This document shows positions 17,138 to 43,410 of a stretch of 64,000 nt of DNA, piece after piece. The notes beneath the pieces are model-generated. The model made no database searches, was not told where the DNA came from, and worked only from the letters and a program-made list of their open reading frames with translations. The first letter of the stretch is position 1, and the number at the start of each line of letters is the position of its first letter. A program made the position numbers and the translations under genes. The DNA is from Heterostelium album PN500 (lineage: Eukaryota > Evosea > Eumycetozoa > Acytosteliales > Acytosteliaceae), in the NCBI RefSeq assembly GCF_000004825.1, contig NW_008805104.1:124001-188000 (forward strand). Reading direction: 5' to 3'.

Positions 17138-20100
17138 ATGAATTCAAATTTTACTTATTTATTTGTATTATATCTATTTATTAATATTCTTGGTATAGGC
17201 AACAATGTTGTCGAATCTTTAGAATGCGGTAGCAATGCTCTTCCCTTAGGAAAGTATTCATTCCCACCTCTCATAAAGTATTGGTATGCCGAGTTCGTCT
17301 ATCAGGACACTACCAACTCGGTTGTTGACTATGGTGCAGTAGGACGTGTCAGTGGTGCCGTACCAGAGAAGATCTACGTGGTCGACGGTATCAACTATCT
17401 ACGTTTACGATTCTATGTCAATGATGTCTACGACCTGTTCTTGACGGTCAACAGCTACAGTGGTGCACTTTGTAATCATACGATCATCTCCAACACAACG
17501 ACTCTAATGATTCCACACGTAGATATCGTCCAACCGAAATGTCTATATGCCAATGCCACTCTCACCCCAATCAACAACACGCTTATCAATCTTCCATTTT
17601 TCCAGGTGGATTGTCTTTCTTATCCAGATCCCACTCTATCGATGGCGGCATACACTCCCACCTTCCAATACAAAGTAGATATCAACGGTGTCTATCGTAT
17701 TACCTATGGAAACCTCCAGTATCTATTCAATCTTGAAGCTCAAAATCCATTGATACCAATCTTTAGTTTTTCCTCTGCCATTATTGGTCAGAACAGTACG
17801 ATGTCCATTCAGAACTCCCAGATGTTCAGCTCCATCCAATTAGTCGATTACCAAGGAAATCTAGTTACACCAACCAATATTAACCAATTCCCAATTGTAA
17901 ATAGTATGCGATATAAATTGATTGCTGTTTCCAATACATGTGGAACTCAGGTAATGGATGTAGTTGCCAACCTCTACCCTTACTTGAAATCAAAAGTTCT
18001 TAATTACAGTTGCGCCAATTCCACTGTTGATGTTTCATTCGACTTTGACTTCCAGGTACCTGGTATTGGAACACAGAATAATATCACTATTGGAGATTTC
18101 GCCTATCAATTGGGTACCCCTATTACCTTAAGACAAGGATCGCTTATTAGCGTCGGAATAAAAGGTCAATACAACTTTGACTACCTCTACCCCTTACCGA
18201 GATTGAACCCATCGATAGGATACACCATAGATTCCTACCCAACATGTTCAACAACCGGTATATTTACCATCCACTACGATGGTAATATCACTGATGTCTC
18301 TGTGAACTACCATAAGGTCACTTCCAACAAAGTTTCTTTCGAGTTTGGCCGACAATACTCCGTTCAAACTTTATGTGGACAAGAGATTGTTGTTTTCTAT
18401 AACAACCCTCCAATCTATTCGATTGACTCGTCAACCGACGATTGTCTTGGAATCATGTCGGTTGTTGTTAGAAACTACCAATCATACTCTGAAATAATTT
18501 TAATCGATTCAGCATTAGGTATCGATTATACAGCAATCGATGGTATCTTCTATAATGTTTACCCATCTTCTCAATTGTCATTTTCCTACAAAGAGAATAG
18601 CAGCTGCTATTCTTCCGGAATTAGGGTTCCATACACTTTGGCTCCCCAAGATTCCAGTCAAATCCAGGTCAAACATCAAATTCTTCAACCATCATCGTCA
18701 TGTAGTGATAAAGTGTTATTCAATTATCAAGTCATTAACAAAGGTGTCATACTCGAAAATGTTACCGATAGTTTCTATTATGGTCAAAATATAACACATA
18801 ACTTAGGATATGGAACATGTGGTGATTATATCAATATTCCACTCGTTGTAGATAGTATGTATTAGAACAGATATTTAATTATGACAGAGGTGAAATTATC
18901 AATATTTATTAATAATTTGTAAATTTTTTATTAAACAAAAAAACAGATTTATTAAATGTAACAACATATAAAATTGTAAAGTCAGCAGTTTGTAAATATT
19001 CATTAGCAACTATTCAATTGGAATCTGTTGATATCATTAATTTACAATCTATATACATTAATGGAATACAAGAAGCTCTCAATTCTGTTGACGCCACTTA
19101 CCAAATTCCAACTGGACAACATACTATTGAACTTACCTATTCTAATCCAAACGGAAATTGTGAAACTATATTGAATGTCGACATACCATTCACAAACAAC
19201 ACTGAATTGACACACACCATAACCAATCAAGATTCAACAAAATGTGATGAATTAACAGGTTCAGTACGATTTGCCAATTTCAATGATTTTATTACATTGC
19301 AAATCGATGGAGAAAATTCCTCGATTGGAGCATTCAATCATCTAAATCCCGATATCTACACCATCAAATTCAATCATTCAGTTTGTGGAGTTGGTCAAAT
19401 CGTAGTTCCAATCATTACCGACGGTGAAGTTACATTCGAAGAAATCTACAGACCTACATGTTCCGTTACAGTTGGACCATCTGATGGTATCTATAGAATG
19501 AATGTTCGTGATAGATTTGGAAATCAAATTAAAAACTCTTCCATTAGTTCACCTTATGCCTATCAAACTATGGGTATTGTGACTGGTCAAACCTATGGAG
19601 AATATATTTTTGAAGTTCAATCCGGAGATTTTTGTATTTGGAATCTAAATGGTGAATTTAAACAACAGGAAATCAGTATGTATATCATTTCTTCTAAGAT
19701 TCAAATTAAATGTTTTCTAACTTTTTTTTTTCAGGCTTCAGCTACTCTAATATTAAACCATTAACTACTTACCCTGGATCATTTAATTTCAACACCAATA
19801 CATATATTAGAATTGATAGTGCATCTATTAATTCTGGAGGCTTCTTTGTCTACCCTAAACATATGGGATTCGCAATAATGCCGGGCACACAATTCACCAT
19901 TTCTCTAGAGTACAATGATTTTTGTAAGCTCGACACACTAGCTCCAGCCAATCCACCAACTCCAGATTTCGATTTCGAAATAATTAGACAATGTGGAACA
20001 ATGGATACCATATTGCAGATTCCTCAGAGTGTAGTCGATGAATATTACGTTGTAACTCAAAATGGTAACATTGATGCAAACAATCAAATCAACATGTACA

Positions 20101-21039
20101 GTTCCACTTTCGTTGTTTTGACATCGAAATCAAATGGAACTCAATACTATTACAACATTGGAAATTCCAACTATGAGATGCCACCACCCGTTCAATATTC
20201 AACCAAAGATGAATCATGCTCTTCAAGTGGCGATGGTTCAATCACTATCACCAATACACAAACAAATTACAGCTACACTCTAGTCGATTCACAAACTTTA
20301 AATTCAGTACAACAACCAGCGACCAGTGGTGTTTGGACAAATCTACCTGCAAGCACTTACCGATTGACAGTTGTCAACAACACTGGTCCAACCTGCCAAT
20401 CATCTATTGATATTATTGTCGGTAGCAAAGCACCAGTACTCTCAACATCAATTGTTAACATATGTTCCGCTGCTGTATTGAATTCAGTTGCAACATTCTC
20501 AACAACTGTTAACAATCAAGCAGTTAACAATGTTAATTATTCAGTTGATGGTGTCCAGATTAATTCAAACAAGATCGAATTGACACCAGGTAATTACACA
20601 GTGAAAGCATTTGTAAATGAAAGTACCTGTAGACAATTCACCAGCCAAACATTCACAGTTCAATCGAATATCGTCGAAGCAGAAGTTACATCATCGATTT
20701 GTTCGACAGCCAGTATCAAAGCAACATCAGAACTCCAAGATCAATTGACAATTAAATTGATTAATGTTACAAATGGTGGTAATTCATTGGTTGGTCAAGC
20801 AATCAATGGAAACACAGCCAACATCACCAACCTCTCTCGTGGAACCTATCAATTCACAGTTGCCGAATCATCTGGTGTGTTCAATTACAACAACATCATT
20901 CAACATTCTTGAATGTCCAACACAACCACCAACTGAAACTCCAACACAAACACCTGTCAATCATTCATACCAACTTTCACCATCCACTTTATTATTATTC
21001 ATATTCTCCATTCTTTCATTATTCTTTTTATTTGTTTAA
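17138..21039 (+). CDS. Array copy A: Cys-patterned repeat surface protein, frameshifted before its GPI-type tail
   Basis: Exons are 17138-18854, 18947-19675 and 19735 onward, with the two phase-1 introns common to all copies. As read, translation stops at 20910-20912 after 1,207 residues. Against copy B there is one extra base within 20876-20883 (TCTGGTGTGTTC versus TCTGGATGTTC). Past that point the true ending (FNILECPTQPPTETPTQTP, hydrophobic tail) continues in the next frame to 21039. Everything before the break is intact and closest to copy B: the signal peptide, the ECGSNALPLG start, FYVNDVYDLFLT, DIVQPKCLYANATLTP, the exon-2 FNHSVCGVGQIVVPII block and the SSGDGSITITN module. If the shift is real, the product loses stalk and anchor and would be secreted. 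If it is an assembly error, the protein is like its neighbours. Confidence 0.85.
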
Positions 21040-21360
21040 AATATAATTAAAATTTAATATCTGAATAAATAAAATGGCTTTATTTTGATTTAATTTTGCT
21101 AAAAACTATCATAGTTTGTTTAAATTATTTTTAACAATAGTGCGCTTCTCGCAAAACACCAAACAAGTTTAGGTTGAAACAAGTTTTTTTTGTTTTTTTC
21201 AAAAAGCATTTTGTTTTTTCAAAGAATTCAACTTCAACTAAAATTAACTAAAACAAGAACAGTCTTTTTCGATCATCAAAAAACCCATTTTTTATTTTTA
21301 TTTTTGATCAAGAGAATTTTTAGTTTGTATACAAAATTTAAATCATTAATTGAGTTAGTT

Positions 21361-24300
21361 ATGAATTCAAAATTTATTTATTTATTTGTATTATATATAT
21401 TTTTTAATTTGATTAACCACAATTTTGTGGAATCTTTGGATTGTGGTAGTAATGCTCTTCCATTGCAACAGTATAATTTCCCACCAATAACAAAGTATTG
21501 GTATGCCGAGTTCATCTATGAAGATATTGCAAATGCTTTGGTGGACTTTGGTGCTGTCGGTCGAAATACTCATGCCATTCCCGAGAAAGTGATCACCGTC
21601 GAAATCCCAAAATATCTTCATCTTAGATTCTATGTCAATGATATCTACGATATATTCTTGACTGCCAGAGACTACAATGGTGAACTTTGTAATCATACTA
21701 TCATCTCCAATACAACGACTCTGATGATTCCACACGTAGATATCGTTCAACCGAAATGTCTATATTCCAATGCCACTCTAACCCCGATCAACAATTCAGT
21801 TATCAATCTTCCATTTTTCACTGTCAAAGGGGTCTCCAATACAGATCCTGCCAATTCACTGATAGCCGACACTCCAAGCTTCGAATATAGAGTCAATATG
21901 AATGGTGTCTATTCTATTACCTATCCTCCCAATATTGTATATTATTTCCATCTATTTGCTCAAAATCCATTGGTACCAGTTATTGGTTTCTCCCCCGCCA
22001 TCATTGGTCAGAACAGTTATTTATCCGTTCAAAACACCCAGATGTTCAGCTCCATCCAATTAATTAATATCCAAGGAAATCTAGTTACACCAACCAGTCC
22101 AAACCAATTCCCAACTACAATTGGAATGCCCTATCAATTGATTGCTGTTTCAGATACCTGTGGAACTCAAGTTATGAGTGTCACTCCAGGATTAACACCA
22201 TCGTTAAAATCTACTATCTTAGGTTATAATTGTTCAGACTCTACCGTGGAGATGTCATTTGACTTTGGATACCCAGTTACAGGTTATATTGATATGTCTA
22301 TTGAAAATATAGGTCCATATCAGTTGGGTACCCCAGTTAAATTAGCCCAAGGATCATATGTTAGAGTTTCTATATCTGGTGATTTCCAAAATTCCTATAT
22401 TTTCAGTGTTCCATCTATCACACAAAACCAAAGCTACACCGTCAGTACATATCCAACTTGTACCACGAATGGATCTTTTTCAGTCAACTATGATGGCAAT
22501 ATCTCTGATATTAAAGTTAATAGTATCCCACTTACTTCCCATCAAGTTCCATTCGAGTTCAACCAACAATACACCATTCAAGGACTTTGTGGAGCACCAA
22601 TCAGTTTATTATATAACAACCGACCACTATATTCAATTGATTCAACTTCCTACGATTGTCTTGGAATCATGTCAGTTGTTGTTCAGAATTACCAATCATA
22701 CTCTGAAATTATTTTGAATGACCACATGCTAAATATCAATTATACGACAATCAATGGTATCTTCCAAAATGTATATCCATCTTCCCAACTGTCATTTATC
22801 TACACTTTGGATAAGAGCTGCCAATCCTATCAATATTCCATCCCATACACTATGACTATCCAAGATTCCAGTCAAATCCAGATTAAACAAAAAATACTTC
22901 AATCATCATCATCATGTAGTGAAAAAGTGTTATTCAATTATCAAGTCATTAACAATGGTGTCATACTCGGAAATTTTACCGATAGTTTCTACTATGGTCA
23001 AAGTATAGGACATAAATATAGATATGGAACATGTAATAATATCATTATTGTAGCCATGGTCGATAGTATGTATTCGATCAATATTTAATTATTAATCTAA
23101 TATTCAAAATATTAATCTAAACTAAAATTTTTATAATTAAATGAAAACAGATTCATTAAATGTAACATCATATAAAATTATACAACCAGCAGTTTGTAAA
23201 GATTCAATAGCCACTATTCAATTGGAATCTGTTGATATCATGAATTTAAAAACGGTCTTCATTGATGATATCCAGTCAGATGTAACTTCTGATGGCCTTT
23301 TACAAGTTCCAACTGGACAACATACTATTGAACTTACCTATGCTAATCCATTTGGAAATTGTAAAACTATATTGAATGTCGACATACCATTCACAAACAA
23401 CACTGAATTGACACACACCATAACCAATCAAGATTCAACAAAATGTCACCAATCAACAGGTTCTGTTCAATTTGCTAATTTCAATGGTTTTATTTCATTG
23501 CAAATCGATGGAGAAAATTCCACAAATGGAACCTTTAGTAATCTTCCTCCTGATATCTACACCATCAAATTCAATCATTCAGTTTGTGGAGTTGGTCAAT
23601 TCGTTGTTCCAATCATTACCGATGGTGAAGTTACATTCGAGGAAATCTACAGACCAACATGTTCCAAACCAGATGGAGAATCAGATGGTGTCTATAGAAT
23701 GAATGTTCGTGATAGATTAAGAAATCAAATCCAAAACTCCTCCATTAACACACCTTATGTATATCAAACTATGGGTATTCTTGCTGGTCAGTCTTATGGA
23801 AATTATCAGTTTGAAGTTCAATCCGGAGATTTTTGTATTTGGAATCTAAATGGTGAATTTTCAAAACAAGAAATCAGTATGTTTTCTCAAAAACTATAAC
23901 CAAATCAAATTTATATTTACTAATCCAATTTTTATTTTTATTATTATTAATTTTTTCAGGTGTTAATTATTATAATGTTACACCTTACACTTCTTTCCCT
24001 GGATCCTTTTATTTTAACGCCAGTACATACATTAGAATTGATGATGCGTTTTTATCTAGTATTACAGGTATATATGTGTATCCAGGATATGTTGATTTCG
24101 CACTTTTCTCAAATTTTCAAGCCACATTCACTATAAATTATAATGATAATTGTCAGATCTATGTACCTGCTCCTCTCACTCCACCAACACCAGACTTTGG
24201 AATCACCACATTCAGACAATGTGGATCAATGGACACCATATTACAAGTTCCACAAAGTGTTGTCAATGAATACTATGTAACAACAAACAATGGTAATTTG

Positions 24301-25263
24301 GATACCAACAACCAAATGTACATTTTCGACTCGATTTATATTATTTTGACATCGAAATCAAATGGAACTCAATATTTCTACAATGCCCAAAATACATACA
24401 CTGCATCCGCACTAGCCATTCAATATACATCGAAAGATGAATCATGTTCTGGAAGTGGTGATGGTTCAATAACTGTTACCAATCCAATACCAAACGTTGT
24501 ATACTCACTTACAGATACTGGAATTGCAGGTCAATTGCCACAACCAGCAACCAATGGAATCTGGAAAAATCTACACGTCAGCAAATATCTTTTGACAGCT
24601 GTCAACACCACAGACCCCACATGCCAATCATCTATTGATGTTTATATCCGTAGCAATTCACCAGTACTCTCAACATCAATTGTTAACATATGTTCCGCTG
24701 CTGTATTGAATTCAGTTGCAACATTCTCAACAACTGTAAACAATCAAGCAGTTAACAATGTTTATTATTCAGTTGATGGTGTCCAGATTAATTCAAACAA
24801 GATCGAATTGACACCAGGTAATTACACTGTGAAAGCATTTGTAAATGAAAGTACCTGTAGACAATTCACCAGCCAAACATTCACTGTTCAATCGAATATC
24901 GTCGAAGCAGAAGTTACATCATCGATTTGTTCGACAGCCAGTATCAAAGCAACATCAGAACTTCAAGATCAATTGACAATTAGATTGATTAATATTACAA
25001 ATGGTGGTAATTCATTGGTTGGTCAAGCAATCAACGGAAACACAGCCAACATCACCAACCTCTCTCGTGGAACCTATCAATTCACAATCACTGAATCATC
25101 TGGATGTTCGATTACAACAACATCATTCAACATTCTTGAATGTCCAACACAACCACCAACTGAAACTCCAACACAAACACCTGTCAATCATTCATATCAA
25201 CTTTCACCATCCACGTCATTGTTCTTATTCTCCATTCTTTCATTATTCATTTTACTTAATTAA
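21361..25263 (+). CDS. Array copy B: full-length GPI-type surface repeat protein (reference copy)
   Basis: Exons 21361-23065, 23151-23876 and 23960-25263 encode 1,244 residues. The start chosen is the MNSKF Met, shared with copies A, E and F and followed by a signal peptide (about 1-26). The mature protein begins DCGSNALPL. An N-terminal domain (about 30-135: AEFIYEDI, DFGAVGR, FYVNDIYDIFLT) is followed by many modules of roughly 80-100 residues with paired Cys. Recurrent motifs are NYDGNISDI, DSTSYDCLGIMSVVVQNY and LNINYTT. Exon 2 gives VTNQDSTKC-like and FNHSVCGVGQ motifs, and exon 3 gives SCSGSGDGSITVTN. These resemble SprB-type repeats of bacterial adhesins. N-x-S/T sites are abundant. 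The C-terminus is PTQPPTETPTQTPVNHS, a Ser-rich cleavage zone and about 15 hydrophobic residues without a cytosolic tail, as in GPI-anchor signals. I do not recognise a named family; an adhesion or recognition role is inferred. Confidence 0.88.
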
Positions 25264-25843
25264 AATTTGTTGCAAAAAACTTACGAAAAAAATTAGACAT
25301 GAAACGTTTCATCTGTTTAAAAACAATTTGTTCATGGAAAATAAAAAAAAAATTGCTTTTTTTGAAAAAAGTTTTGGCTGTTTTTTTTTAGCTCTGAGCA
25401 ATGTTAAAATTAATAAAAGTAAAGATGCAACTGTATGCCTTTCATTCTTCTTTACATCAGCAACAATACGGAGTTGGGAACCCTCGCAAGGAAATTTAAA
25501 ATTAAATAAATTAGATGCTAAAGATTTGTTTTTGCGGCTGTTTTGATAAAAACTTGATCAGATCTGCAATTATTTTTAGTTTCAAAAAAAAAAAGATTTG
25601 AACAATCAATTCATCGAAAAAACAAAATCATTTTTAGTTTGAATGGTTGTGCACAACTTACTTAAGTTATTTTTAAATATATCAATTAAATTATTTATTT
25701 TTTGTTTTTTTTTTGTTAAAATGATATTATTATCAATCTACCGGGGTTAGGACCTCAACTACTTTTGGTTCATTCTTTTTTAAACACACAGATAAATTTG
25801 ATTTTTTTAATTCTTTATTATTTATAATTATTTATTATCTAGA

Positions 25844-28800
25844 ATGAAATCGAAATTTATTTATTTATTTGTAATATATTTAATTTACAATTTCGCTAAT
25901 GTTGTTAATTCAGCAGAATGTGGCAGCAATGCTCCTCCTTTAGAACAATACCAAATAGATAATCCAAATCCTTGGTCTCATTCTCTATCCTTAATCGATT
26001 CCAACCGTTTACTGCTTGACTTCGGTGGAGTTGGTCAATTTAGTCGTGCCGTTGCAGAGAAAATCTATTTTAATATACCAAGATCAGTTCAACTAAGATT
26101 CTATATCAACGATATCTATGACCTGTTCTTCACTGTCTACGATTTCAATGGAGTACCATGTAATCATACCACCTCTATCAATTCAACATTGACACTGCCA
26201 AAGATAGATATTGTCCAACCAAAGTGCCTTTACGCCAATGCCACAATCACTCCAATCAATAATACCTATATCAATGCTCAATCATTCATCATCGAAAATC
26301 CCCTTTTCCCAGCGCCAGAATTTGAAATGACAGCATATACTCCAACTTTCCAATATAGAGTTGGTATGAACGGTGTCTATTCTCTTAAATATGATACCGG
26401 ATATCCATCACTTATTAATCTACAAGCCCAGAATGACTTGGTTCCATTGGTTAATTACCCAGCAGGTATACTTGGAAAGAACAATTCTATGACCATCTTG
26501 AATCCACAGAGTTTCACTTCGATCAAGTTATACGATCCACAAGGTGTTGAAGTTGCTCCAACCTCTACAAACACATACACAATTGTGAATTCAATAACCT
26601 ATCAAATGGTTGCTGTTTCAAATACATGTGGAACTCAAGTACTGCCAGTCAATTCTGACAATATTCCAGTTCTTAAAAGTAATGTCCACTCATACAATTG
26701 CGAAAGCCGGACTGTCGATGTTTCCTTTGGATTCGACTACAATGTCACTGGAACCGACTATTCATTATCGTATCTAGGATATCCATATGTAGCTGATTCA
26801 ATCCTTACACTTGAAGAATCGTCGAGCGTAACTATTAAACTCGATGGCCAATTCTCGACAAGTTATTATTTTTTGATCTCACCATTCATCAGCAATCTCA
26901 CATACACAGTCGATTCCTATCCAACTTGTTTCTCTGATGGATCGATTCAATTCAATTACGATGGTGATATTTCCAAGGTCAAAGTAGATGGTGCACCACT
27001 CCAAAGTAAAACAATGCCATTTTTATATGACAATATTCATACTATTAAACCATTGTGTGGATATAGTTTTACTCTTCGTCACAATGTCTTTCCACTGTAT
27101 TCCGTAGACTCAACATCAAGCGATTGTCTTGGAACTTCCAGTATTGTTATTACCAACTACAAATCTTTCCATGAATTGAATCTCACCGATACAAAACTCA
27201 ATATCAACTATACAATCAACTCTGACGGGGTTTTCACAGACGTTATCAACTCTAACAATTTGTTACTCAGTTATAGAAATTACGCCAATTGTTCAATTAT
27301 CCAAACCACTCTTAATTATATTATTAAAAATGAACCCGATGTTTCAACATTTGATTTCAAAAGACAAATTCTTACTCCAACAACATCATGCCAAGATAAG
27401 GTATCAGTAAATTTCGAAATGGTCAACCATGGTATACTTATTGATAACGTTACATTGAATCTCAATATTGGAGAAATATATGCTCATCAAATCAAATATG
27501 GAGCATGTCCTCCAATTTCATACATCCTTGAAGTCGATGGTAAGTAAAAAAGATAATAGCTTTCTATTTATATTATAATTAATTCAATTTTGTTTTATTT
27601 TTCATTTTGTTTGAAACAGATTCATTAAATGCAACGACCTACAAAATAATTAGACCTGCCATTTGTAAAGATTCATTGGCATTGGTTCAATTCGAATCTG
27701 TAGATCTATTAAATTTGGATAGCTTGTATGTCGATGGATACAATAATGGTTTTGATAGCAACTCAGTAATTATCCAAGTTTCAACTGGAAAACACAGAGT
27801 CGAACTTATCTATTTTAATGACGAAGGAAGTTGTTTAACCGTGTTGGAAATCGATATTCCATACACAAAGGATATTGAAATCGCATACACTGTCACCAAT
27901 CAAGATTCAACCAACTGCAGCTTTGCAACTGGTGCCGTCCATTTCTCAAATATTACCGACTATTTTTCATTGGAGTATGATGGAATGAAAGTAGACTCCT
28001 CAGGAACAATGAATAATTTCCAAGCAGGTGATTACTTTTTTGAATTTAATCATACAGTTTGTGGAGTTGGTCAAATCACAATTCCAATCGTTACCGATGG
28101 TCAAGTTATCCTAGAGGAAATCTATCAACCAACCTGTATTAATAACCAACAATCTGATGGTATCCATCGTGTCACTGTATTTGATAGATTAGGAAATAGA
28201 ATTAGAAATATCACAACCAATCCAAGATATTCATTCGATAATATGGGAATTATTGCTGGTCTCTATGATGAATATGAAAATAGAATCCAATACCTCAACT
28301 GTGTTTGGATGATTAAAGGTGAAATTCCCTTTGCAGATATTGGTAAGTTGTTTATTATTATTTAATTCTTTTTTTTAACTCAATATTAATGTATATACGT
28401 ATTAAACTTCATTAGAAATCACATATTCTGATATTAAACCGTTTACCTCATACCCTGGATCATTTAATTTCCATCTTAGTAGACCTATTAGAATTAACAC
28501 TGCAACTATTTCTGGATATGGAGCTCCATTTGTTTACCCCAATCATATAGATTTCGCTTTGCTGCCAGGAAATCAAAATCCAGTCCAAATAATGTATAAT
28601 GATTTATGTCTTCTTTATAGACCACCACCAATCAGTCCAGCAGAACCAGATTTCGGTATCAAAGTTTTCACAAAATGTGGGACAATGGATAATTATGCTC
28701 AATTCCCACAGAGTGTTGTCGATAACTATTATATTGGTACGGACAATGGTGTTCCAGATGAAAATAATCTAATACCGATGAACAGAGGACTCTATATATT

Positions 28801-29716
28801 GTTAACATCGAAAGCTACTGGTCAACTCCATTTCATTCGATTGGATAATACAAATATTGAAGCACCATCCAATGTTCAATACACCTTCACCAGTGAATCA
28901 TGTTTTGGAAGTTCCGATGGTTCCATTACCATCATTAACCCAGATGCATCATTAACCTACAGTCTCTCTGGTTTTACAACCTACCCACTACCAGTCAATG
29001 GAAGTTGGACTGGTCTACCTGTTGGTGAATATCAATTATCTGTAACCAATACCTCCTCGATATCCTGTAATCAAATATATCCGATTATTATCAGTAGTAA
29101 CGAACCAGTTGTAAATCCATCAGTAGTAAGACAATGTGTTGCTGGAGGAAATGGAATTGTTGCATTCTCAACAATCGTTAGCAATCAACAAGCCAAGAAT
29201 GTAGTGTATTCAGTTGATGGTGTTGAAAGTAATTCCGAACAAGTATTATTGCCATCAGGTAATTACACAGTCAAGGCATTTGTTAAAGATAGTACTTGCC
29301 GTCAATTTGTAAACCAAGATTTCACAATCCAATCGAATATCATTGAAGCCGAAGTTACATCATCGATTTGTTCGACAGCCAGTATCAAAGCAACATCAGA
29401 ACTTCAAGATCAATTGATCATTAGATTGATTAATGTTACAAATGGTGGTAATTCATTGGTTGGTCAAGCAATCAATGGAAACACAGCCAACATCACCAAT
29501 CTCTCTCGTGGAACCTATCAATTCACAGTTGCCGAATCATCTGGATGTTTAATGACAACAACATCATTCAACATTCTTGAATGTCCAACACAACCACCAA
29601 CTGAAACTCCAACACAAACACCTGTCAATCATTCATACCAACTTTCACCATCATCCTCTTTATTATTATTCACTTTCTTTACAATTATTTCAATGTTATT
29701 CGTTTATAACAATTAA
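25844..29716 (+). CDS. Array copy C: GPI-type surface repeat protein
   Basis: Exons 25844-27539, 27620-28342 and 28416-29716 encode 1,239 residues. Copy C is closest to copy D: long blocks are almost identical, such as YPAGILGKNNSMTILNPQS and DRLGNRIRNITTNPRYSFD. It differs clearly from A and B in the N-terminal domain (ECGSNAPPLEQYQ, DFGGVGQ, FYINDIYDLFFTVYDFNG). It has its own motif set in the middle modules (CFSDGSIQFNYDGDIS, SSDCLGTSSIVITNY). The SprB-like module reads SCFGSSDGSITIINPD. The last ~170 codons converge on the sequence shared by copies A-E. The tail is QLSPSSSLLLFTFF and ends in YNN. It lies 580 bases downstream of copy B. Confidence 0.88.
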
Positions 29717-30254: not shown

Positions 30255-33200
30255 ATGAAATCTAATTATATTTATTATTTATTTGTAATATATTTAATTT
30301 ACAATTTCGCTAATGTTGTTCATTCAGCGGAATGTGGCAGCAATGCTCCTCCTTTGGAGCAATACCAAATAACAGCTCCTAACGGGTGGTCTCTGGATTT
30401 TGCCTTTGCCGATTACAATCGTTTACTCCTTGATTTCGGTGGTGTTGGTCAAGTCAGTAAAGCCGTTGCAGAGAAAATCTATTTGAATCAACCAAGATCG
30501 CTTCATCTTAGATTCTACACCAACGATATCTATGACCTGTACTTCACTGTCTACGATTTCAATGGAGTGCCATGTAATCATACCGCTTCTACCAATGCAA
30601 CTTTGGCCATTCCAAAGGTCGATATTATCCAACCAAAGTGCCTTTTCACCAATGCCACAATCACTCCAATCAATAATACCATTATCAACGCTCAATCATT
30701 CACCATCAAAAATGTAATGATGGCATCGCCAGACTTTGAAATGACAGCATATACTCCAACTTTCCAATATGGAGTTCTCATGAACGGTGTCTATTCTCTT
30801 ACATACTATCCCTCTGGATTTACATCACTATTGAATCTTCAAGCCAAGAATGACTTGGTTCCATTGGTTAATTACCCAGCAGGTATACTTGGAAAGAACA
30901 ATTCTATGACCATCTTGAATCCACAGAGTTTCACTTCGATCAAGTTATACGATCCACAAGGTGTTGAAGTTGCTCCAACCTCTCCAAACACATACACAAT
31001 TATGAATACTATATCTTATAATTTGGTTGCTGTTTCAAATACATGTGGAACTCAAGTACTGCCAGTCAATTCTGACAATATTCCAATTCTTAAGAGTACA
31101 GTTCACTCATACAATTGCGATGACCGGACTGTCGGTGTATCCTTTGGATTCGATTACAATGTCACTGGAACCGACTATTCCTTAACATACTTGGGTAATC
31201 CATATCAAATTGGTGAGATCCTTAAACTTGAACAATCTGATAGTGTATCAATTCAACTCAATGGACAATTCTCGACAAGATATTATTTTTATATATCACC
31301 ATTTTCGAGCAATCTCACATACACAGTCGATTCCTATCCAACTTGTTTCTCTGATGGATCGATTCAATTCAATTACGATGGTGATATTTCCAATGTCAGA
31401 TTAAATGGTCAACCACTCCTAAGTAAAACAATTCCATTCGAGTATGACACAGATTATATTGTGCAACCATTTTGTGGAGATAGCTTTTCAATTCGTCACA
31501 ACAACAATCCTCTCTATTCTGTAGACTCAACATCAAGGGATTGTCTTGGAACTTCCAGTATTGTCATCTCCAACTACAAATCTTTCCATGAATTGAATCT
31601 CACCGATACAAAACTCAATATCAACTATACAATCAACTCTGACGGGGTTTTCAAAGACGTTATCAACTCCGACAATTTGTTACTCAGTTATAGAAATTTC
31701 GCCAATTGTTCAATTTTCCAAACCACTCTTAATGATATTATTATTACCGATCCAGATGTTTCGACAATTGATCTCAAAAAACAAATACTTACACCAACAA
31801 CATCATGCCAAGATAAGGTTTCAGTAAATTTCGAAATGGTCAACCATGGTGTACTTATTGACAACGTTACATTGAATCTCTTCATGGGAGAATCATATCT
31901 ACATAAAATCAAATTTGGAACATGTCCTCCACTTTCTTACTATCTTGAAGTCGGTTGTAAGTATAAAAAGATAATATATCTTTCTATTTATATTATTATT
32001 AATTCAAACATTTTTTTTTTTTGTTTGAAACAGATTCATTAAATGCAACGACCTACAAAATAATTAGACCTGCCGTTTGTAAAGATTCATTGGCATTGGT
32101 TCAATTCGAATCTGTAGATCTATTAAATTTGGATAGCTTGTATGTCGATGGAAACAATTATGGTTTTGATAGAAACTCAGTAATTATCCAAGTTCCAACA
32201 GGAAAACATATAGTCGAACTTAACTATTGGAATGACATGGCAGGTTGTGTAGCGGTGTTGGAAATCGATATTCCATACACAAAGGATATTGAAATCGCAT
32301 ACACTGTCACCAATCAAGATTCCACAAATTGCAGTTTCGCAACTGGTTCTGTCCATTTCTCAAATATTGCCGACTTTTTTTCTTTGGAATTCGATGCCAT
32401 GCCACTAGATTCTTCTGGAACACTTGGTAAATTGAATACTGGTGATTACTTATTCGAATTTAATCATACAGTTTGTGGAGTTGGTCAAATCAATATTCCA
32501 ATCGTTACCGATGGTAAAGTTATTTTAGAGGAGATCTACCACCCAACTTGTATTAAGAAAGGCCAATCTGATGGTATTCATCGTGTCACTGTATTTGATA
32601 GATTGGGAAATAGAATTAGAAATATCACAACCAATCCAAGATATTCATTCGATAATATGGGAATTATTGCTGGTCTTTATGATGAATATGAAAATAGAAT
32701 CCAATACCTCAATTGTATTTGGCCGATTCAAGGTGAAATTCCATTAACAGATATTAGTAAGTTTTTATTATTATTAAATTTATGATCATCTTTAACCGAA
32801 TAATAATTTTATTGTTTTTCCAATTAAAATAGAAATCACATATTCTGATATTAAACCATTCACCTCATACCCTGGATCTTTTAATTTCAATGTCAATCAA
32901 CCCATTAGAATTAACCAAGCAGGTATAAGTGGATTTGGATCTCCATTTGTTTACCCCAACCATATAGATTTCGCTTTGGTGCCAGGAAATCAAAATCCAT
33001 TCCAAATAATGTATAATGATTTATGTGTTGTTTCTACACCAGGACCAGTCAGTCCAGCAGAACCAGATTTCGGTATCAAAATAACAACGAAATGTGGAAC
33101 TTTGGATAATTATGCTCAATTCCCACAGAGTGTTGTCGATAACTATTATATTACTACAAACAATGGAGTTCCAGATGAAAATAATCAAATACCAGTTTAC

Positions 33201-34130
33201 TCAGGACTTTATATATTGTTAACATCGAAAGCTACTGGTCAACTCCATTTCCTTCTAATGGATAACTCAAATATTGAAGCACCATCCAATGTTCAATACA
33301 CCTTAACCAATGAATCATGTTTTGGAAGTTCCGATGGTTCCATTACCATCATTAACCCAGATGCATCATTAACATACCGTCTCTCTGGTGATTCAACTTA
33401 TCCACAGCCAGTAAATGGAAGTTGGACTGGTCTACCTGTTGGTGAATATCAATTATCTGTAACCAATACCACTTCATTGTCGTGCAATCAATTATATTCA
33501 ATTATTATCAATAGTAACGAACCAGTTGTAAATCCATCAGTAGTAAGACAATGTGTTACTGGAGGAAATGGAATTGCTGCATTCTCAACAATCGTAAACA
33601 ATCAACAAGCCAAGAATGTAGTGTATTCAGTTGATGGTGTTGAAAGTAATTCCGAACAAGTATTATTGCCATCAGGTAATTACACAGTCAAGGCATTTGT
33701 TAAAGATAGTACTTGCCGTCAATTTGTAAACCAAGATTTCACAATCCAATCGAATATCATTGAAGCCGAAGTTGTATCATCGATTTGTTCGACAGCCAGT
33801 ATCAAAGCAACATCAGAACTTCAAGATCAATTGATCATTAGATTGATTAATGTTACAAATGGTGGTAATTCATTGGTTGGTCAAGCAATCAATGGAAACA
33901 CAGCCAACATCACCAATCTCTCTCGTGGAACCTATCAATTCACAGTTGCCGAATCATCTGGATGTTTAATGACAACAACATCATTCAACATTCTTGAATG
34001 TCCAACACAACCACCAACTGAAACTCCAACACAAACACCTGTCAATCATTCATACCAACTTTCACCATCATCCTCTTTATTATTCACTTTCCTAACAATT
34101 ATCTCTATGTTATTCATTTATCATAATTAA
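30255..34130 (+). CDS. Array copy D: GPI-type surface repeat protein
   Basis: Exons 30255-31956, 32034-32756 and 32833-34130 encode 1,240 residues. The frame is open 30 codons further upstream, but the Met at 30255 (MKSNYIYYLFVIYLIYN) matches the start of copy C and begins the signal peptide, so it is chosen. Copy D is the sister of copy C. The N-terminal domain differs mainly at ITAPNGWSLDFAFADYNR, and exon 2 keeps the DRLGNRIRNITTNPRYSFD block. The first intron begins after GGTT, giving a VGY junction instead of VDD. The C-terminus (QLSPSSSLLFTFLTIISML) keeps the anchor-type tail. Silent and replacement differences from C cluster in the middle modules, while 3' parts are nearly the same. 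Confidence 0.88.
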
Positions 34131-35186
34131 ACAAATAAATTATATTTAAATATTTAATAAAAAAAATTGAACAAAAATTATATAATATAAAATCTGCTGG
34201 TAGCATTGCATAAGTGTTTAGGAATGACATTAAACCATTCTTTTCTTTGACAGAATAATTTTTTTTTGACTTCTTCTTCTCTATGCTTTTGGATTAATAT
34301 TGTTCTCATTATTACTAACACCATCAACTGCAATGACATCATCTTCGTCTTTAGCTAATATAGGACTATCACTCTCTATTTGTTTTCCGCTAGCTTTGTT
34401 TCTAGTCTCTCATTACTTTCACTCAGGTTGATAAAGGCTTCTTTTGTCATTTCACGCTGTTTACTCGATCTTTATTCTATCCTTTGCCATAATTTCTCTT
34501 CATATTCATCTTCTGCATCATCCAACTTTCTTTTATAAATGGTAGATAGGACAATAAATAAAGAAACATTACTATGAGGATTATTAAATATAATAAATCA
34601 AAGCTCTTGACTTCTATATCATCAGTCAAGTGAGATTCTAGTGATTTATCACTATTTGTACCTCTATATATAGTTTTATTAATTTTGGTTTGTTTTATTT
34701 TAAAACTAATATTAATAAACTAGTAATATTGATATTAAAATTACTATTACTAATGTTATTTATCAATTTTAATAAAAAAAATTAAACTTCGAAAAGTTAT
34801 TTATTATATGTTCAAATTATTTGTAATGTGAACAAAGTAACGTTCAAAATGAAATGAAAGGTGCGACGTCTCACCTTTTATCAGTTTAGAAAATTTTGTT
34901 TTTTCAAATTCTTCACCCATACTGAGATCGAATTTAAAAAAGGCAAGACTGTGTTTTTTGTGTTTTTTTTTTTGTTCCTTTTTTCATGCCTCATCCGAAA
35001 ATTGATTTTGCCTTTAACAACGTGGTTGATATGCGCAATAGATATTAACATTCAAAGAATAGAAATAAAACAAAAATCTTTAACTATTTTTTTCTTTTGA
35101 CAAAACTGGTTTGAAAGGATCTATTTATTTCATCTATCTTGATCAAACAATAGCTAAACCGTTGATATCATTAGCTAATAATAATA
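34131..35186. other. Longest spacer inside the array, contains a decayed coding fragment
   Basis: At 1,056 bases this gap is two to four times the other spacers in the array. It holds a minus-strand pseudogene fragment (listed separately) and AT-rich sequence that includes the promoter of copy E. The + strand frame at 34861-35100 is low-complexity and not credible. Confidence 0.5.
34281..34540 (-). pseudogene. Decayed coding fragment, acidic coiled-coil-like
   Basis: On the minus strand, reading from 34537, the frame gives YKRKLDDAEDEYEEKLWQRI, a stop, then QREMTKEAFINLSESNERLE and a second stop. One frame over it continues as ESDSPILAKDEDDVIAVDGV and ends in TAG at 34281-34283. Codon choice and the acidic/helical character look like real former protein sequence with stops and a shift. 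No flanking exon is found. The family is not recognised. It lies opposite in orientation to the array and may be left from an insertion between copies D and E. Confidence 0.45.
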
Positions 35187-38100
35187 ATGAATTCAAATAT
35201 TATTTATTTATTAGTATTATCCTTAGTTTATTATGTTTGTACTTTAGATTTTGTTCTTTCAGCGGAATGCGGAAGTAATGCTCCTCCAATAGCAAAGTAT
35301 CAACAAGTATTCGAAAATTATTGGCGAGTCGATATAAACTATCCTGATGCCGATGGTTCTTTGATTGACTTTGGTGGTCTTGGTCGTAAGACTCATGCCG
35401 TTCCAGAAAAGATCTACCTAATATCTTTATATAAGAGGGTTGTTCGTCTTAGATTCCAAGTCAACGATATCTACGATGTTTACTTCACGGTTCGCGATTT
35501 CAATGGTGTTCCATGTAATCATAGTTTGGTATCTGACACCAACACTCAGAGTCTACCATCGATCGATATTGTCCAACCGGTTTGTTTGTACACCAATGCC
35601 ACTCTCACCCCATTCAACAACACCTACATGAACACACCTAATTTCCAAGTGAAATGCTCGACCTCTCCTTCATCCCTCTACGAAATGAAAGCCTACACTC
35701 CGACATTCCAATATAAAACATCGATCAATGGTGTCCATACTATTACCTATGGTAACGGTTATTCATTCCCATTCCAATTACAAGCTCAAAACTCATTGGT
35801 TCCAATCATTTCATATACAACTGGTGTGATTGGAAAGAAAAGTAACTTGACCGTTTTGAATGCCAATAGATTTACATCTATTAAGTTGTTTTCTTCGTCA
35901 GGTCCTGAAGTTATTCCAACCACTCCAAACAATTACCCAATAGTTAACAACCTGTTGTATTCATTGGTTGCTGTTTCCGATACTTGTGGAACTCAAATTA
36001 TGGATTTACAACCAGAAGTGGATATTAATGTTTATAGTACCGTACACTCATACAATTGTCAAGCAAACACTGTCGATGTTTCATTTGACTTTGGATACAA
36101 TGTATCACAGAGTGATTATACTATAAATGTTGCAGGTTCGGCTTACCAAGTTGGTAATAATCTCACCTTGGCACAAGGAACTACGTATACTATAAGTGTA
36201 ACTGGTATTAATGGATTGGCTAGTACCTATTCCTATTCTTCTCCATCACTTGGTTCGAGTGTTAGTTACACGATTGACAGCTATCCAACATGTTACTCAG
36301 ATGGCTTGGTGACATTCAACTATGCCGGTGATATTTCAGATATCAAAGTTAACAATATTCAACTTACCACTAAGCAGATCGCCGTGGAATATGGAACCAA
36401 TTACAATGTTTACCCGAAATGTGGTGGATCTTTCTATATCAACTTTAACACCGTACCATTATACTCAGTCGATCGTACCTCGGGTAATTGTTTTGGAACG
36501 GCATCTATTGTTGTTCAAAACTATCAGATATTCTCATCTATTTATTTGTTAGATTTAAATTCTAACTATACGGCAGTGGATGGTATCTTTAGTAATGTCT
36601 ATCTCTCGACCAACTACAAATTCGTCTACAAACTCAGCAACAATTGTACCGAGTCTGAATATTATATATCACTTCCAATGGATAATACAGGTTCAGAAAC
36701 AATCGAAATTCATCAACAAATAGTGAATCAACCAGATTCTTGTCAAGACTTAATTTCAGTGAATTTCCAACTTGAAAAAGGTGGTGTAGTTTTGGAGAAT
36801 TTCACACAACCCAATCTAATGTTGGGAAGTACTTTTAACCATTATTTAAAGTTTGGTACTTGCGGTACAAGTTTAATTGTTCTTACTGTTGATTCATTGA
36901 GTAAGTAAAATGATATTCATAAAGTTTTATCAAGTCTAATTATTTTTTAATTTATTATTTATAGATATTTTAAATACAACAACATACAAGATTATTAAAC
37001 CTGCAGTTTGTAAAGATTCATTTGCTCTCATCCAATTGGAATCGGTTGATCTTTTGAAATTATCTTCTATCAATATTGACTTGCAACCAGTTAATATCAA
37101 TAAGGATGATGCAACCTATTTAGTTCCAACAGGTAAACACTTGATTGATCTCAATTATCAGAACGATCGTGGACATTGTGGAACCAGATTGGAAATTGAC
37201 ATCCCATTCACAAGAGATGTTGAACTTTCATACAATGTAATCAACCAAGATTCAACGAAATGTAACCAAGCAACTGGTTCAATTCAATTCTCTAATTTCG
37301 CAGATTTCAGCAATCTTACACTCGTTAATGGAACCACATCCGACAATGGATCATTCAATAAATTATCAACAAACTATTACACAGTTCAATTCAATCATTC
37401 AGTTTGTGGAGTTGGTCAAATCAACAATATTTCGGTGGTTACTGATGGTCACGTTAGTATTGAAGAAATCTATCATCCAACTTGTGACAGAGGAATGGGA
37501 TATTCCGATGGTGTTTATCAATTGAATGTCTTTGATAGACTTGGAGATAGAATATCAAACCTGTCTCTCAATTCAACATATGGATTTGATGGTTTAGGTA
37601 TTATTGCTGGTCAAACTAAACTAGATTATAAAATTAAATCACAACAGTTTTGCTCTTGGGGTGTGCAAGCTACTTACCAACTGAATGAAATTAGTAAGTT
37701 ATTACAAATAAAAACTACTTACAAACTTAACAAATATTAATCATTATTTATTTAAAATCAAAGATGTTACCTTCTCAGATATCAAACAATATACCACCTA
37801 TCCAGGATCATTTAATTTCAATTTCAGTTCATATATTAGAATTGATGGTCCAGAAGTAGATGGAATTGGTGGTAGTTTTGTTTATCCTAATCATCTTGAT
37901 TTATCAGTTTATCCAAATACTGTCGATACATTCACAGCTTTTTATAATGACTATTGTAAAGTGATGACATCGGCACCACTAAATCCAGTGTTGAACCCGG
38001 ATTTCGGAATCAAACAAATCAAGAAATGTGGATCGATGGATACACAAATCCAATTCCCACAGAGTGTTGTCGACAACTATTATGTTAAGACCTCCAATGG

Positions 38101-39058
38101 TCTCCTGGATGCAAACAACATGGTTTATGCTTTCAATGGAATTGACATTGTTTTGACATCCAAGACAACTGGAGTTGCTACATACTTTACTCTTGAAACT
38201 CAAAACACTGAAGCATTGCCACCTGTTTCCTATAGTTTTACCAACGAGTCATGTATGGGTAGTGGTGATGCATCGATAACTATCGCCAATCAAGATCCAA
38301 ACCTAATATACTCTCTCTACAATGTCAATACAGAAATTAACTATGCTAATCCAATCAATGGAGGATGGAGTGGACTCACCAAAGGTATCTATTCTATCTA
38401 TGCAACAAACAACACTAATGTCGCATGTAAAACCTCTGAACAAGTCGAAATTCAAGTCAATTCACCAGTTACCATTGCCATTACCACCAATCAATGTTCT
38501 GCTCAATCCAATGGTGTTGTTTCATTCTCAACAACTGTTAACAATCAACCAGTAAACAATGTAGTTTATTCAGTTGATGTCCAGATTAATTCAACCAAAG
38601 TAATACTGCCATCAGGTGATTACACAGTCAAGGCATTTGTAAATGAAGGTACCTGTAGACAATTCGTAAACCAAGATTTCACAGTACAGTCGAATATCCT
38701 AGAAGCAGAAGTTGTATCATCGATTTGTTCGACAGCCAGTATCAAAGCAACATCAGAACTTCAAGATCAATTGACAATTAGATTGTATAATGTTACAAAT
38801 GGTGGTAATTCATTGGTTGGTCAAGCAATCAATGGAAACACAGCCAACATCACCAACCTCTCTCGTGGAACCTATCAATTCACAATCACTGAATCATCTG
38901 GATGTTCGATTACAACAGCATCATTCAACATTCTTGAATGTCCAACACAACCACCAACTGAAACTCCAACACAAACACCTATCAATCGATCATATCAACT
39001 TTCACCATACACTTCATTATTATTCTTCTCCATTCTTTCATTAATCTTTTTTGCTTAA
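35187..39058 (+). CDS. Array copy E: GPI-type surface repeat protein
   Basis: Exons 35187-36900, 36965-37693 and 37764-39058 encode 1,245 residues. The signal peptide is MNSNIIYLLVLSLVYYVC and the mature start ECGSNAPPIAKY. The copy is intermediate. Its N-terminal part has its own sequence (DFGGLGRKTHAVPEKIY, FQVNDIYDVYFTVRDFNG) and exon 2 has VCGVGQINNISVVTDG with one extra residue. Yet the final ~170 codons are nearly those of copies A and B, including the SITTASFNILECP end. One codon is missing in exon 3: SVDVQ where the others have SVDGVQ. The first intron is the shortest of the set (64 bases). The anchor-type tail ends FFSILSLIFFA. Confidence 0.88.
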
Positions 39059-39335
39059 TTAAAATTTGTTGCAAAAAAAATAATAATAATAAATAAAATT
39101 GAATATTATTAAATTAAGCATTTTTAACTATCTAGATTAAAATCTCTTAAACACCAAATTTTGTTTTTTTTTTTTTTAAACACATTTTGATTTTTCAAGG
39201 AATCGTTTCATGAAGAGTCTTTTTTTTTGATCAGTTTTTTTATCAAAAAAACCCATTTTTATCTTTTAGTTATACAACCAACCTAACTTTAAAGTACGTA
39301 AACAAAATTTAACTCATTTATTGATTAGAACAGTT

Positions 39336-42300
39336 ATGAATTCTAAATTTATTTATATATTTGTATTATATTTGTTTTATAGTATTGGAACTAGTGTTGT
39401 TCAATCTGTGGAATGTGGTAGTAATGCTCCTCCTCTAGGAAACTACCAATTTTTAAATCCAACTCGATATTGGTATGCCGATTTATACTACGAGGATAGT
39501 AATTCTTCACTGATTGATTTCGGTGCTGTCGGACGTAGCTCCCATGCCGTTCCAGAGAAGATATACAGTTACTACCAGTCTGCGAGTACTCGTATGAGAT
39601 TCACCGTCAACGATATCTACGATGTCTATTACACCTTTAGAGATTACAGTGGTGCTCCCTGTAATCGTACCGTCGTTTCCAATACGAAAACTCTGACTAT
39701 TCCATACACCAAAATTGTCCAACCCCTTTGTTTATATACCAATGCCACTCTCACGCCAATCAACAACACCCAAATCAATACGGAATCGTTTACCATCCAA
39801 TCCGTAGCTCCTCAGATACCCAATGAAATGATTGCTTTCACACCGACCTTCCAATATAGAGTGAAATCCAATGGAGTGCATAGTATAACTTTTCTAAATG
39901 GTTATACATTCCTTATCAGACTACAAGCTCAAAATCCGTTGGTCCCATCTCTTTCATTTTCCCAGGGAATCATTGGAAGCAATGGAACTGTAGCCATTTT
40001 AAACTACCAGAGTTTCAGCTCTGCCCACTTGTACGACTCTGAAGGAAATGAAGTTGCTCCAATCGATCCAAGCACTATGACGTTCCCATATGAAGACCAA
40101 AAGGTGTATACTCTCATCGCCAATTCCAATACTTGTGGAGCACAGTTAATGACTATCTCCTCCAACCTACTCCCAGTTTTAAGAAACAAAATCCATTCCT
40201 CCAATTGCCAAGATGGAACAGTCGATGTTTCATTCTACTTTGATAACAATGTAACTGGTGCCGATTATTCGATGTACATTCAGAATGGACCTAGATTCAT
40301 GGTTGGTGATATATTGACATTCCAAAGGGGAGCGTCACTCACGATTCATTTAAGCGGCCAATTCCAAGTTGCCTATAATTTCATTACTCCTAATCTCGGT
40401 ACCAATTTTACTTATTCTATCGATGCCATTCCAACCTGTGACACTCCTGGAATGATTAAGATCCAATATAACGGAAATTATTCTGATATTGTAGTGAACA
40501 ACGTTCCTATGACCAATATGTATATGACATTAGAATATGGCAAAGAATATCTAGTTCAGACATGTGGTGATCCTATTCCAATTAAATTCCAACGAGTACC
40601 TCTTTACTCGATTGAATCAACCTCCACCGATTGTCTTGGAATTTCGACCATTGCCCTTCAAAACTATAATCTATTCAATGAAATCGTCATTCATGATTCC
40701 AACTTGAATATTAACTATACAACAACCGATGGTATCTTCAAAAAAGTGTTTACCTCAAGCTCACTGCAATTTATTTACAAAGAGTCAGCTAATTGCAGCT
40801 ACTTTACATATGACATTGCACTGTCATTGCCAAATCCCAATACCACAACAATCAATGTCATAACAGAAGTAATTAGATCAACCACAACATGTTCCGATGC
40901 AGTCACTGTGAATTATTTGTTCATCAACCATGGTATTACCATTGACAATGTTACAGTGGATATTTATCCTGGAGAAACTCAAAAACATCAAATTACATTT
41001 GGATCTTGTCCACCAATTCAATTCCCACTTACAAGTAGCAGTATGTATATAAGATCATCAAAGAATTAGGAAAAAATCAAAATCGTAAAAAGACAATTTC
41101 TAATTTTAATTATAATTATTATTAGATGTAAAGAATCATACAACATACAAGATTATACAACCAGCAGTTTGTAAAGATTCTTTTATGGTTGCAGAATTGA
41201 TATCTGTTGATCTTTTAGATCTAATATATCTTGCAATTAACAATACAACACCAATAGGGTTTCGTAATGGACAAATTTTTCTCCCAGTTGGAAAATATTT
41301 CATCGTTGCTCTATATCAAACGAAAGTTTCTAGATGTTTCTCTGTTATAGATGTAGATATTCCATATAGTAAAGACTATGACCTCCAATACACAGTTACC
41401 AACCAAGATTCAACAAAATGCAACCAACCAACTGGATCGATTGTATTTTCCAATTTCTCAGACTATCATTTATTGGCAATTGGTGAGCAAGCAACAAGTA
41501 CAGGCGCTTTCACACAATTGGCAGTCTACCCAGATGGCTATTCCATTTATTTCAATCACACAGTTTGTGGAGTAGGTCTAAAGATAATACCCATCGTTAC
41601 CGATGGTCAAGTCAATCTAGAGGAAATCTATCGCCCAACTTGCAACAATGGTTTGGGAAGATCAGATGGTATCTATCGAGTCAAAGGTAAAGACAGATTA
41701 GGAAATGACATCCAAAATACGTCAGTCGACTCATTCAATTCCAATTATTATATCGGTGGAATGAAACTAATTGTCAACATTCCCACTGGAAATTATAACT
41801 TTAAAGTTAAATCTGGTGATTATTGTCAATGGAATTTTATAGGAACTGCGCAAACAAGTCCAGTCAGTAAGTTATCTTTTTTTTTTTAAACTATTTTAAT
41901 AATATACTAGTTACTGACGTTATTTTTGAAATAAAGATTTCACATTTTCAATAGATCAACCATTTAGATATCAACCTGGTTCAGTTAATTTTACAACTAA
42001 TACAAAGATTAGAATGGAAAGTATCGTAGCTTTCACCTCACAGTCAAGCTATGTTTATCCAGACTACATTGGTTCGATTTCATCAGATAACAGGGGTGTC
42101 TTTTTATATGATTACAATGATTATTGCTCTGCCTTTGTAGACATGCCAAAGAATCCACCAGAACCAGATTTCCAAATTCAAACTATCACGAAATGTGGAA
42201 CCAAAGATAAAACACTCCAAATCCCACAATCAATTGTCGACCAATATTATATTAGTACAAGCATCGGTAGTTTGGATTCAAACAATCAAATTCATACTTT

Positions 42301-43249
42301 GACGAATGTCGATTTTTATTTCACTTTGAAAGCAACCGGTCAACAATATACCTATTCCTACATCTATGTAGACACTCCACTATCACAAATACCAATCGAA
42401 ACATCAGTTACCAGTGAAACATGTATTGGAACTAGAGATGGTTCCATTACCATCACCAACCAAAATCCAGATTTCACTTATTTACTTTTCGATGTAGCTG
42501 GAGAATCGTTACTCCCTCAAGTACTCAAAGGACGTTGGGATTCACTGACTTCTGGTGTCTATCTATTAGCAACCATCAATAATACAGACTTGACATGCTT
42601 CACCTCTTCTGAAAATATATTTGTTAACGCCTCTTCACCAGTCATTACCGCATCAGTCATTAACCAATGCACTCCAGGTAAAAATGGAACAGTAACATTT
42701 TCTACTACGCAAGGAGGTAACAATATGGATAGTATTTACTTTGTGGGTGGCGCTGAGATTGGCTCAAGAAACTTGACATTGGCACCTGGTAGCTATACAG
42801 TGACTGGAGTTACGACTTCATCTTCATGTAGACAAGTTGTCAGCCAAACATTCACAGTACTATCGAATATCGTCGAAGCTGAAGTTACATCATCGATTTG
42901 CGCAACTGCCTCGATTGTAATAAGATCAGAACTTCAAAGTCAATTGGTTATTAGATTGTTTAATGTAACTAATAGTCCATTAGATGGAAACGGTAATTTG
43001 GTTGGACAAGTAATCAATGGAAACACAGCCAGCATTTCAAACCTCTCTCGTGGAACCTATCAATTCACAGTTACTGAATCATCTGGTTGTTACATCGCAA
43101 CACCACAATTCAACATTCTTGAATGTCCAACACAACCACCAACTGAAACTCCAACACAACCTATTAATCAATCACATCAACTTTCACCATCATCATCATT
43201 ACTCTCAATAATGACACTCATTATTTTGTCATTTTTAATGTTCAATTAA
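39336..43249 (+). CDS. Array copy F: GPI-type surface repeat protein, most divergent full copy
   Basis: Exons 39336-41040, 41126-41866 and 41937-43249 encode 1,252 residues, the longest copy. Five upstream codons are in frame, but MNSKFIYIFVLYLF aligns with the other starts. The middle modules differ most from the rest, for example CDTPGMIKIQYNGNYSDIVV and STDCLGISTIALQNY. The 3' end has escaped full homogenisation: where copies A-E read SIKATSELQDQL, F reads SIVIRSELQSQL and has a four-residue insertion (SPLDGN region). The stalk is shorter (PPTETPTQPINQS). The conserved VCGVG and DGSITI motifs, Cys spacing and anchor-type tail remain. The splice acceptor of intron 2 is AAAG. It lies 277 bases after copy E. 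Confidence 0.88.
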
Positions 43250-43410
43250 AAGCTGTGTTTTTAAAATTATGAAAGGTTTAAAAAAATAAACTGTTTTAAT
43301 CAATTAATGGGCAAAAGTTTGATATCAAAAAAGGGTTGGGGGAACAATCCTATTATTTCTTTAGAGATCTTCTTTTTAAAAAACAATAAAAAAGTTAAAA
43401 ATTACCATCG
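43250..43410. other. Short spacer between copy F and the seventh-copy remnant
   Basis: AT-rich; nothing seen beyond the copy F 3' region. Confidence 0.5.

Follow-up and report, generated by a model that had tools for sequence, protein, structure and literature searches.

A window of 64,000 nucleotides from Heterostelium album PN500 (C39:124001-188000, with a guanine-cytosine (GC) content of about 34%, in a genome assembly of 32.9 Mb and 39 contigs) holds, at positions 17138-43249, a head-to-tail array of six consecutive + strand genes for large, cysteine-rich proteins. We are somewhat more confident than doubtful that they belong to a dictyostelid family of glycosylphosphatidylinositol (GPI)-anchored adhesion or recognition ectodomains, in which copy-specific outer faces would stand on a shared base. 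As a kind, tandem families of variable surface proteins are familiar, and the present family is set apart in that it is not Tgr and met almost no curated profile in the pieces scanned. What appears to be new here is a sharp division between an outer ectodomain that diverges and a base homogenised, as its synonymous sites indicate, by gene conversion: synonymous divergence drops in the base only, among linked copies and not in comparisons with an unlinked copy on contig C16, and the split is seen separately in two arrays of one genome. The family is apparently undescribed so far, as no earlier description was found in the open-licence literature searched, subscription papers lying outside that search.

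Gene structure and members of the family

Stop-to-stop reading frames combined with an enumeration of splice sites bore out the structure proposed in the initial annotation, namely six consecutive + strand genes of three exons with both introns in phase 1 at matching places. The arrangement is the same in all six, every one of the 12 introns is of the GT-AG type, in phase 1 and 59-92 bases long, and the genes are separated by gaps of 277-1056 bases. Copy 1 extends over 17138..20912 (exons 17138-18854, 18947-19675 and 19735-20912; 1207 residues as assembled), copy 2 over 21361..25263 (21361-23065, 23151-23876 and 23960-25263; 1244 residues), copy 3 over 25844..29716 (25844-27539, 27620-28342 and 28416-29716; 1239 residues), copy 4 over 30255..34130 (30255-31956, 32034-32756 and 32833-34130; 1240 residues), copy 5 over 35187..39058 (35187-36900, 36965-37693 and 37764-39058; 1245 residues) and copy 6 over 39336..43249 (39336-41040, 41126-41866 and 41937-43249; 1252 residues). 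The annotated length of about 1,245 residues compares with 1239-1252 in copies 2-6 and with 1207 in copy 1, in which a one-base difference relative to copies 2-6 near 20881 changes the frame, removes stalk and anchor and ends the protein at 20912. Since three-frame translation of 20871-21040 showed the stalk and hydrophobic tail of copy 1 to be still readable in another frame, from approximately 20881 to 21039 on the + strand, the frame change would be either very recent or a sequencing error.

Identity among the array copies amounts to 42-79% in exon 1 and 42-84% in exon 2, and because of these values and the matching introns chance is excluded as the source of their likeness. Protein searches of the same genome, the counts of which are lower bounds, brought the family to nine full genes, the end of one being broken, in addition to at least seven fragments. 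The seventh full gene is unlinked, lies on the - strand of C16 at about 419.6-423.5 kb and has the same two introns as the array; a diverged tandem pair at C17:512314-520369, also on the - strand, shows 22-29% identity over alignments of at least 400 residues and shares the position of the first intron, the second being located elsewhere. Array, C16 copy and C17 pair thus sit on three different contigs.

Divergent outer region and homogenised base

For the substitution and tree analyses copy 1 was cut before its frame change. Synonymous divergence (dS, substitutions per synonymous site) in exon 1 was 1.23-1.84 in 13 of the 15 array pairs, the other two being copies 1-2 (0.75) and 3-4 (0.24), and it was high also in exon 2 and in the opening part of exon 3. 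Within the last approximately 150 residues before the stalk, dS was only 0.08 for copies 1-2, 0.01 for copies 3-4 and 0.26-0.41 for the other pairs among copies 1-5, with 0.57-0.78 in pairs with copy 6; protein identity there is 58-97% within the array, and the stalk and tail are also alike (dS 0.09-0.54). The same drop was found in the C17 pair, with 0.02 in the region before the stalk versus 0.70-1.55 in the other ectodomain regions, whereas the C16 copy, unlinked but carrying this module too, keeps a dS before the stalk of 1.12-1.74 relative to the array.

Equal-size windows, moved in steps of 5 codons and all placed upstream of the homogenised region (stalk and tail lie behind it), were never as low in synonymous difference in any of the 15 array pairs or in the C17 pair (0 of 177-181 windows per pair); the six pairs with the C16 copy had 17 to 89 upstream windows as low as the C-terminal region of exon 3. 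When single codon columns were shuffled, the corresponding count was 0 of 2000 in the C17 pair and in all ten pairs within copies 1-5; copies 1-5, each paired with copy 6, gave 0, 2, 8, 4 and 31 of 2000, and the six C16 pairs gave 221 to 1050 of 2000. As the freezing of synonymous sites is limited to linked copies, it is, on this evidence, repeated gene conversion or unequal exchange, and not constraint on the protein, that homogenises the end of exon 3. Functional constraint would account for the high protein identity next to the membrane, yet it is a very improbable cause, as the synonymous sites are frozen too (dS 0.01-0.41 among copies 1-5) and those of the unlinked C16 copy, in spite of the common module, are not.

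Copies 1 and 2 also share a low-divergence patch around positions 480-800 (proportion of synonymous differences 0.13-0.23), and copy 2 appears to be a mosaic in which all 60 informative sites at positions 1040-1119 agree with copy 1 over copy 5, followed by 4 of 6 sites with copy 1 at 1120-1159 and 5 of 5 with copy 5 at 1160-1199. A change of topology in the homogenised region was considered and rejected: trees of the outer and inner regions show no conflict in the clades tested, and a pairing of copy 2 with copy 5 is rejected by each of them. In the inner-region tree the branch lengths within the array shrink, and the C16 copy is placed among the array copies without support.

Protein anatomy and domain searches

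Protein ends were assessed by hydropathy alone, in a plain scan (17-residue mean above 1.6). From the N-terminus onwards, a hydrophobic segment is followed by approximately 1,150 residues holding most of the cysteines, then by the stalk and a hydrophobic tail. The N-terminal signal peptide of the initial annotation corresponds to a segment above the threshold in five of the six copies and below it in copy 2, and the annotated Pro/Thr stalk, of ECPTQPPTETPTQ type, with hydrophobic C-terminus is present in the five intact copies and missing from copy 1 as assembled. In all eight genes with an intact end (array, C16 and C17) the hydrophobic end segment stops 0-1 residues from the C-terminus, and the scan found no cytoplasmic tail behind it in any of them. 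Owing to this combination of hydrophobic start, Pro/Thr stalk and hydrophobic end without cytoplasmic tail, the array proteins are probably GPI-anchored. Single inner hydrophobic stretches were flagged at 1048-1064 in copy 1, at 588-606 in copy 6 and at 255-271 in one C17 gene. Each array protein contains 25-28 cysteines, of which 21 columns are invariant across all nine full genes and 26 across copies 2-6 and the C16 copy. The designation as repeat proteins found weak support, since profile self-comparison, carried out without a shuffled control, yielded one fair internal pair (about 212-314 with about 972-1077; probability 73%, 55% in reverse) and otherwise pairs of 33-40%.

The Pfam scan covered 20 exon pieces, comprising 15 of the 18 array exons (all except exon 2 of copies 2-4), two of the C16 copy and three of the C17 pair, with a listing limit of E 10 and program filters that remove most matches above about 0.1. 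Y_Y_Y passed its cut-off of 26.6 bits in exon 3 of copies 4 (30.8 bits) and 3 (29.9 bits) only, remaining below it in copies 1, 2, 5 and 6 and in C16; the best score of SprB, likewise in exon 3, was 21.9 (cut-off 28). The scanned pieces of exons 1 and 2 gave no match over cut-off, and the four pieces tried against NCBIfam gave none at all. Searches for relatives of solved structure returned nothing convincing by sequence: a cell surface protein (2l0d) matched exon 3 of copy 6 alone (E 0.016) and was not recovered by the exon 3 profile, and galectin-8 matches to the profile of exon 1 were no better than chance (E 0.25 or worse). A beta fold of probably Ig-like (immunoglobulin-like) modules is proposed from the weak profile matches. 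Surface Ig-like repeats are common in bacteria (Pfam SprB, Y_Y_Y, SdrD_B, Ig_7), and the array matches them weakly, only Y_Y_Y being over cut-off; unlike them, the array genes possess introns and a GPI-type tail. No relatives were found among prokaryotic contigs (two pattern-seeded scans with two peptide patterns each) or among viral contigs (pattern-seeded scans, again with two peptide patterns each), scans in which distant relatives could be missed, and a prokaryotic or viral origin was rejected on these grounds.

Relation to Tgr proteins

Tgr proteins are transmembrane, IPT/TIG, Ig, E-set, repeat proteins, for which a TIG/IPT ectodomain and a transmembrane helix followed by a cytoplasmic domain were taken as criteria. 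The array resembles TgrB1/TgrC1 and their relatives in its large surface ectodomains, in multigene turnover and intralocus recombination, in partial copies beside intact genes and in ratios of nonsynonymous to synonymous substitution (dN/dS) below 1, all of which are reported for tgr genes in PMC12324515. It differs in lacking a detectable TIG/IPT domain and a cytoplasmic tail and in a sequence unrelated by profile, and membership in Tgr was rejected for these reasons. No TIG domain was listed in the 20 exon pieces, and profile-profile comparison (hhalign) of 12 windows with 18 TIG domains of the same genome gave probabilities of at most 0.4%, which agrees with the absence of TIG domains in the initial annotation. 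Those 18 remained from 30 TIG loci fetched, as 10 had stops in the frame taken and two of the other 20 were duplicates. Two TIG stretches serving as positive controls reached 96% and only 31%, so that a very distant TIG relationship may still exist. Exon 2 of copy 5 weakly matched a TIG protein encoded on C5 (E 0.0025), a match that the profile comparison did not uphold.

TIG genes are plentiful in this genome, where the TIG model has at least 150 scored matches. Three TIG-gene stretches on C15 (503864-505923, 958288-960332 and 990336-992374) have equal or near-equal scores and are probably recent duplicates, and the - strand of C5 carries, at a distance of about 77 kb, two TIG-repeat genes that closely resemble each other (L029 4749-5940; L030 4126-5274). 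Within the window, a ComC-like gene for a probable surface protein lies convergently 4.4 kb downstream of the array (47645-54106, - strand); it has seven TIG stretches, EGF and ComC_SSD, none of which were found in the array pieces scanned. A stop that seemed to split this gene at 50303-50305 was dismissed, as it falls within a short GTAAGT...TTTAG intron. Contact site A (gp80) and Polysphondylium gp64 are dictyostelid GPI-anchored surface glycoproteins with adhesive roles, and both are much smaller than the array copies.

Possible function

In their anatomy the proteins fit ectodomains anchored for adhesion or recognition, and a shared base with a divergent outer part would fit different partners for each copy; the pattern of the array suits cell adhesion or recognition without proving it. 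In such a scheme the protein, once in the secretory pathway, would fold into beta modules, probably Ig-like and pinned by disulphides, that follow one another in a long string, and a short Pro/Thr stalk with a GPI anchor would fix it to the outer leaflet of the membrane. Strongly different between copies, the outer approximately 1,000 residues would give each copy another binding face, and the approximately 150 residues before the stalk, overwritten repeatedly between neighbours by gene conversion, would serve as a common base. Other amoebae, most likely during aggregation, would be the binding partners, and new copies would arise by tandem duplication and end as fragments. Of the separate recognition or adhesion system of anchored ectodomains suggested by the initial annotation, what stands is a tandem, cysteine-rich, probably GPI-anchored family apart from Tgr; adhesion or recognition itself is putative.

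Several observations weigh against this interpretation. In every pair computed, dN/dS stayed below 1 across exons 1 and 2 and the outer parts of exon 3, with no sign of pervasive positive (diversifying) selection: the closest pair, copies 3-4, showed 0.55 in exon 1, 0.38 in exon 2, 0.60 in the N-terminal part of exon 3 and 0.31 in the SprB-like part, most other pairs are near synonymous saturation, and values above 1 were confined to stretches of 23-41 codons in the signal or tail (six pairs) and, in copies 3-4, to the end of exon 3, which has hardly changed. As the tgrB1/tgrC1 values given in PMC12324515 are below 1 as well, the ratios neither favour nor exclude recognition. N-glycosylation sites (23-27) are hardly above shuffles in most copies, and their enrichment was dropped as a notable feature; the Ig-like fold rests on weak profile matches. 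A tree of the last approximately 105 codons, from which copy 1 was left out, did not group copies 2 and 5 with support, and their pairing is rejected (p 0.002) over the entire exon-3 end, so that the tract common to both is short and less sure than homogenisation itself. Finally, with so many TIG proteins in the genome (110 are listed for P. pallidum in PMC4931340) no extra recognition system is required.

Among the alternatives, a narrower role in kin or self/non-self recognition separate from Tgr, where strain repertoires would differ and matching outer faces would permit joint aggregation, is unlikely. It is in keeping with tandem surface genes that diverge from copy to copy, undergo conversion and leave dead fragments, and PMC4931340 lists tgrB1 for group 4 only and tgrC1 for D. 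discoideum only, which leaves room for other genes in other dictyostelids. Outer-region dN/dS below 1 and the abundance of TIG genes in the same genome argue against it. A regulatory clue may lie in the tetramer GATC, which is preferred in vitro by the DNA-binding domain of the aggregation regulator GtaC (PMC4506546) and which occurs 18 times in the six 400-base stretches upstream of the array genes versus 7.0 expected. It was, however, singled out once the data had been seen, takes second place among 122 tetramers (P 0.0004, uncorrected) and reaches only 7 versus 3.5 expected in the three other genes (P 0.066); the excess is thus a weak hint at developmental control. Promoter words of 7-10 bases with at least three G/C shared by five of seven genes were not found, and GC content at third codon positions, 0.21-0.40 over the ectodomain regions of copies 1-6 versus 0.27-0.53 in seven neighbouring frames, gave no sign of unusually high expression. 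If kin sorting is sought in dictyostelids outside the range of tgrB1/tgrC1, the 26-kb array offers one concrete, deletable candidate.

Large anchored ectodomains with divergent outer faces would fit equally well the binding of prey or substrate in the growth phase, diversified for different bacteria or surfaces, and the remote Pfam likeness to bacterial-type surface Ig-like repeats points the same way; with no lectin or carbohydrate-binding domain at the Pfam cut-off in the 20 pieces and galectin-8 at chance level, this role has a small though real chance of being correct. Gamete surface proteins are often multicopy and fast-evolving, which would speak for mating-type or sexual fusion proteins acting in macrocyst formation. 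According to PMC3041686, mating groups have been used to sort strains of P. pallidum and P. album. Against such a function stand the two arrays and the seventh copy, which lie on three different contigs, and no link to a mating locus came to light, though none was looked for; this role is improbable. Returning to anchored adhesion or recognition ectodomains, their furthest extension would be a second, TIG-free recognition system of group 2 dictyostelids, parallel to TgrB/TgrC, with tandem GPI-anchored receptors whose outer faces specify identity, whose bases are interchangeable through gene conversion and for which neighbouring fragments are possible donors; this we offer as a speculation with rather low expectation.

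Fragments and neighbouring genes

Two relics of 3' ends downstream of copy 6 were absent from the initial annotation. One, at 45217..45519 (+ strand), matches copy 3 at E 1e-21 and preserves the terminal part of exon 3, approximately 100 residues that include stalk and hydrophobic tail; the other, at approximately 43399..43638 (+ strand), is probably a degraded exon 3 end, its last approximately 35 residues being family-like by eye and without an E-value. To the right of the window, C39:188628-189004 (- strand) holds a further exon 3 end relic, which by eye resembles that at 45217-45519. Other fragments are located on C30 (a degraded copy), on C10 and C2 (C17-like ends) and on C11.

Upstream of the array, an exon at 6072-6908 (+ strand) is type III polyketide-synthase-like (FAE1_CUT1_RppA) and is adjoined by malate synthase and aspartoacylase-like genes. 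At 57746-59977 (- strand), where local GC content rises to 47%, a protein with six Dicty_CTDC repeat stretches is encoded.

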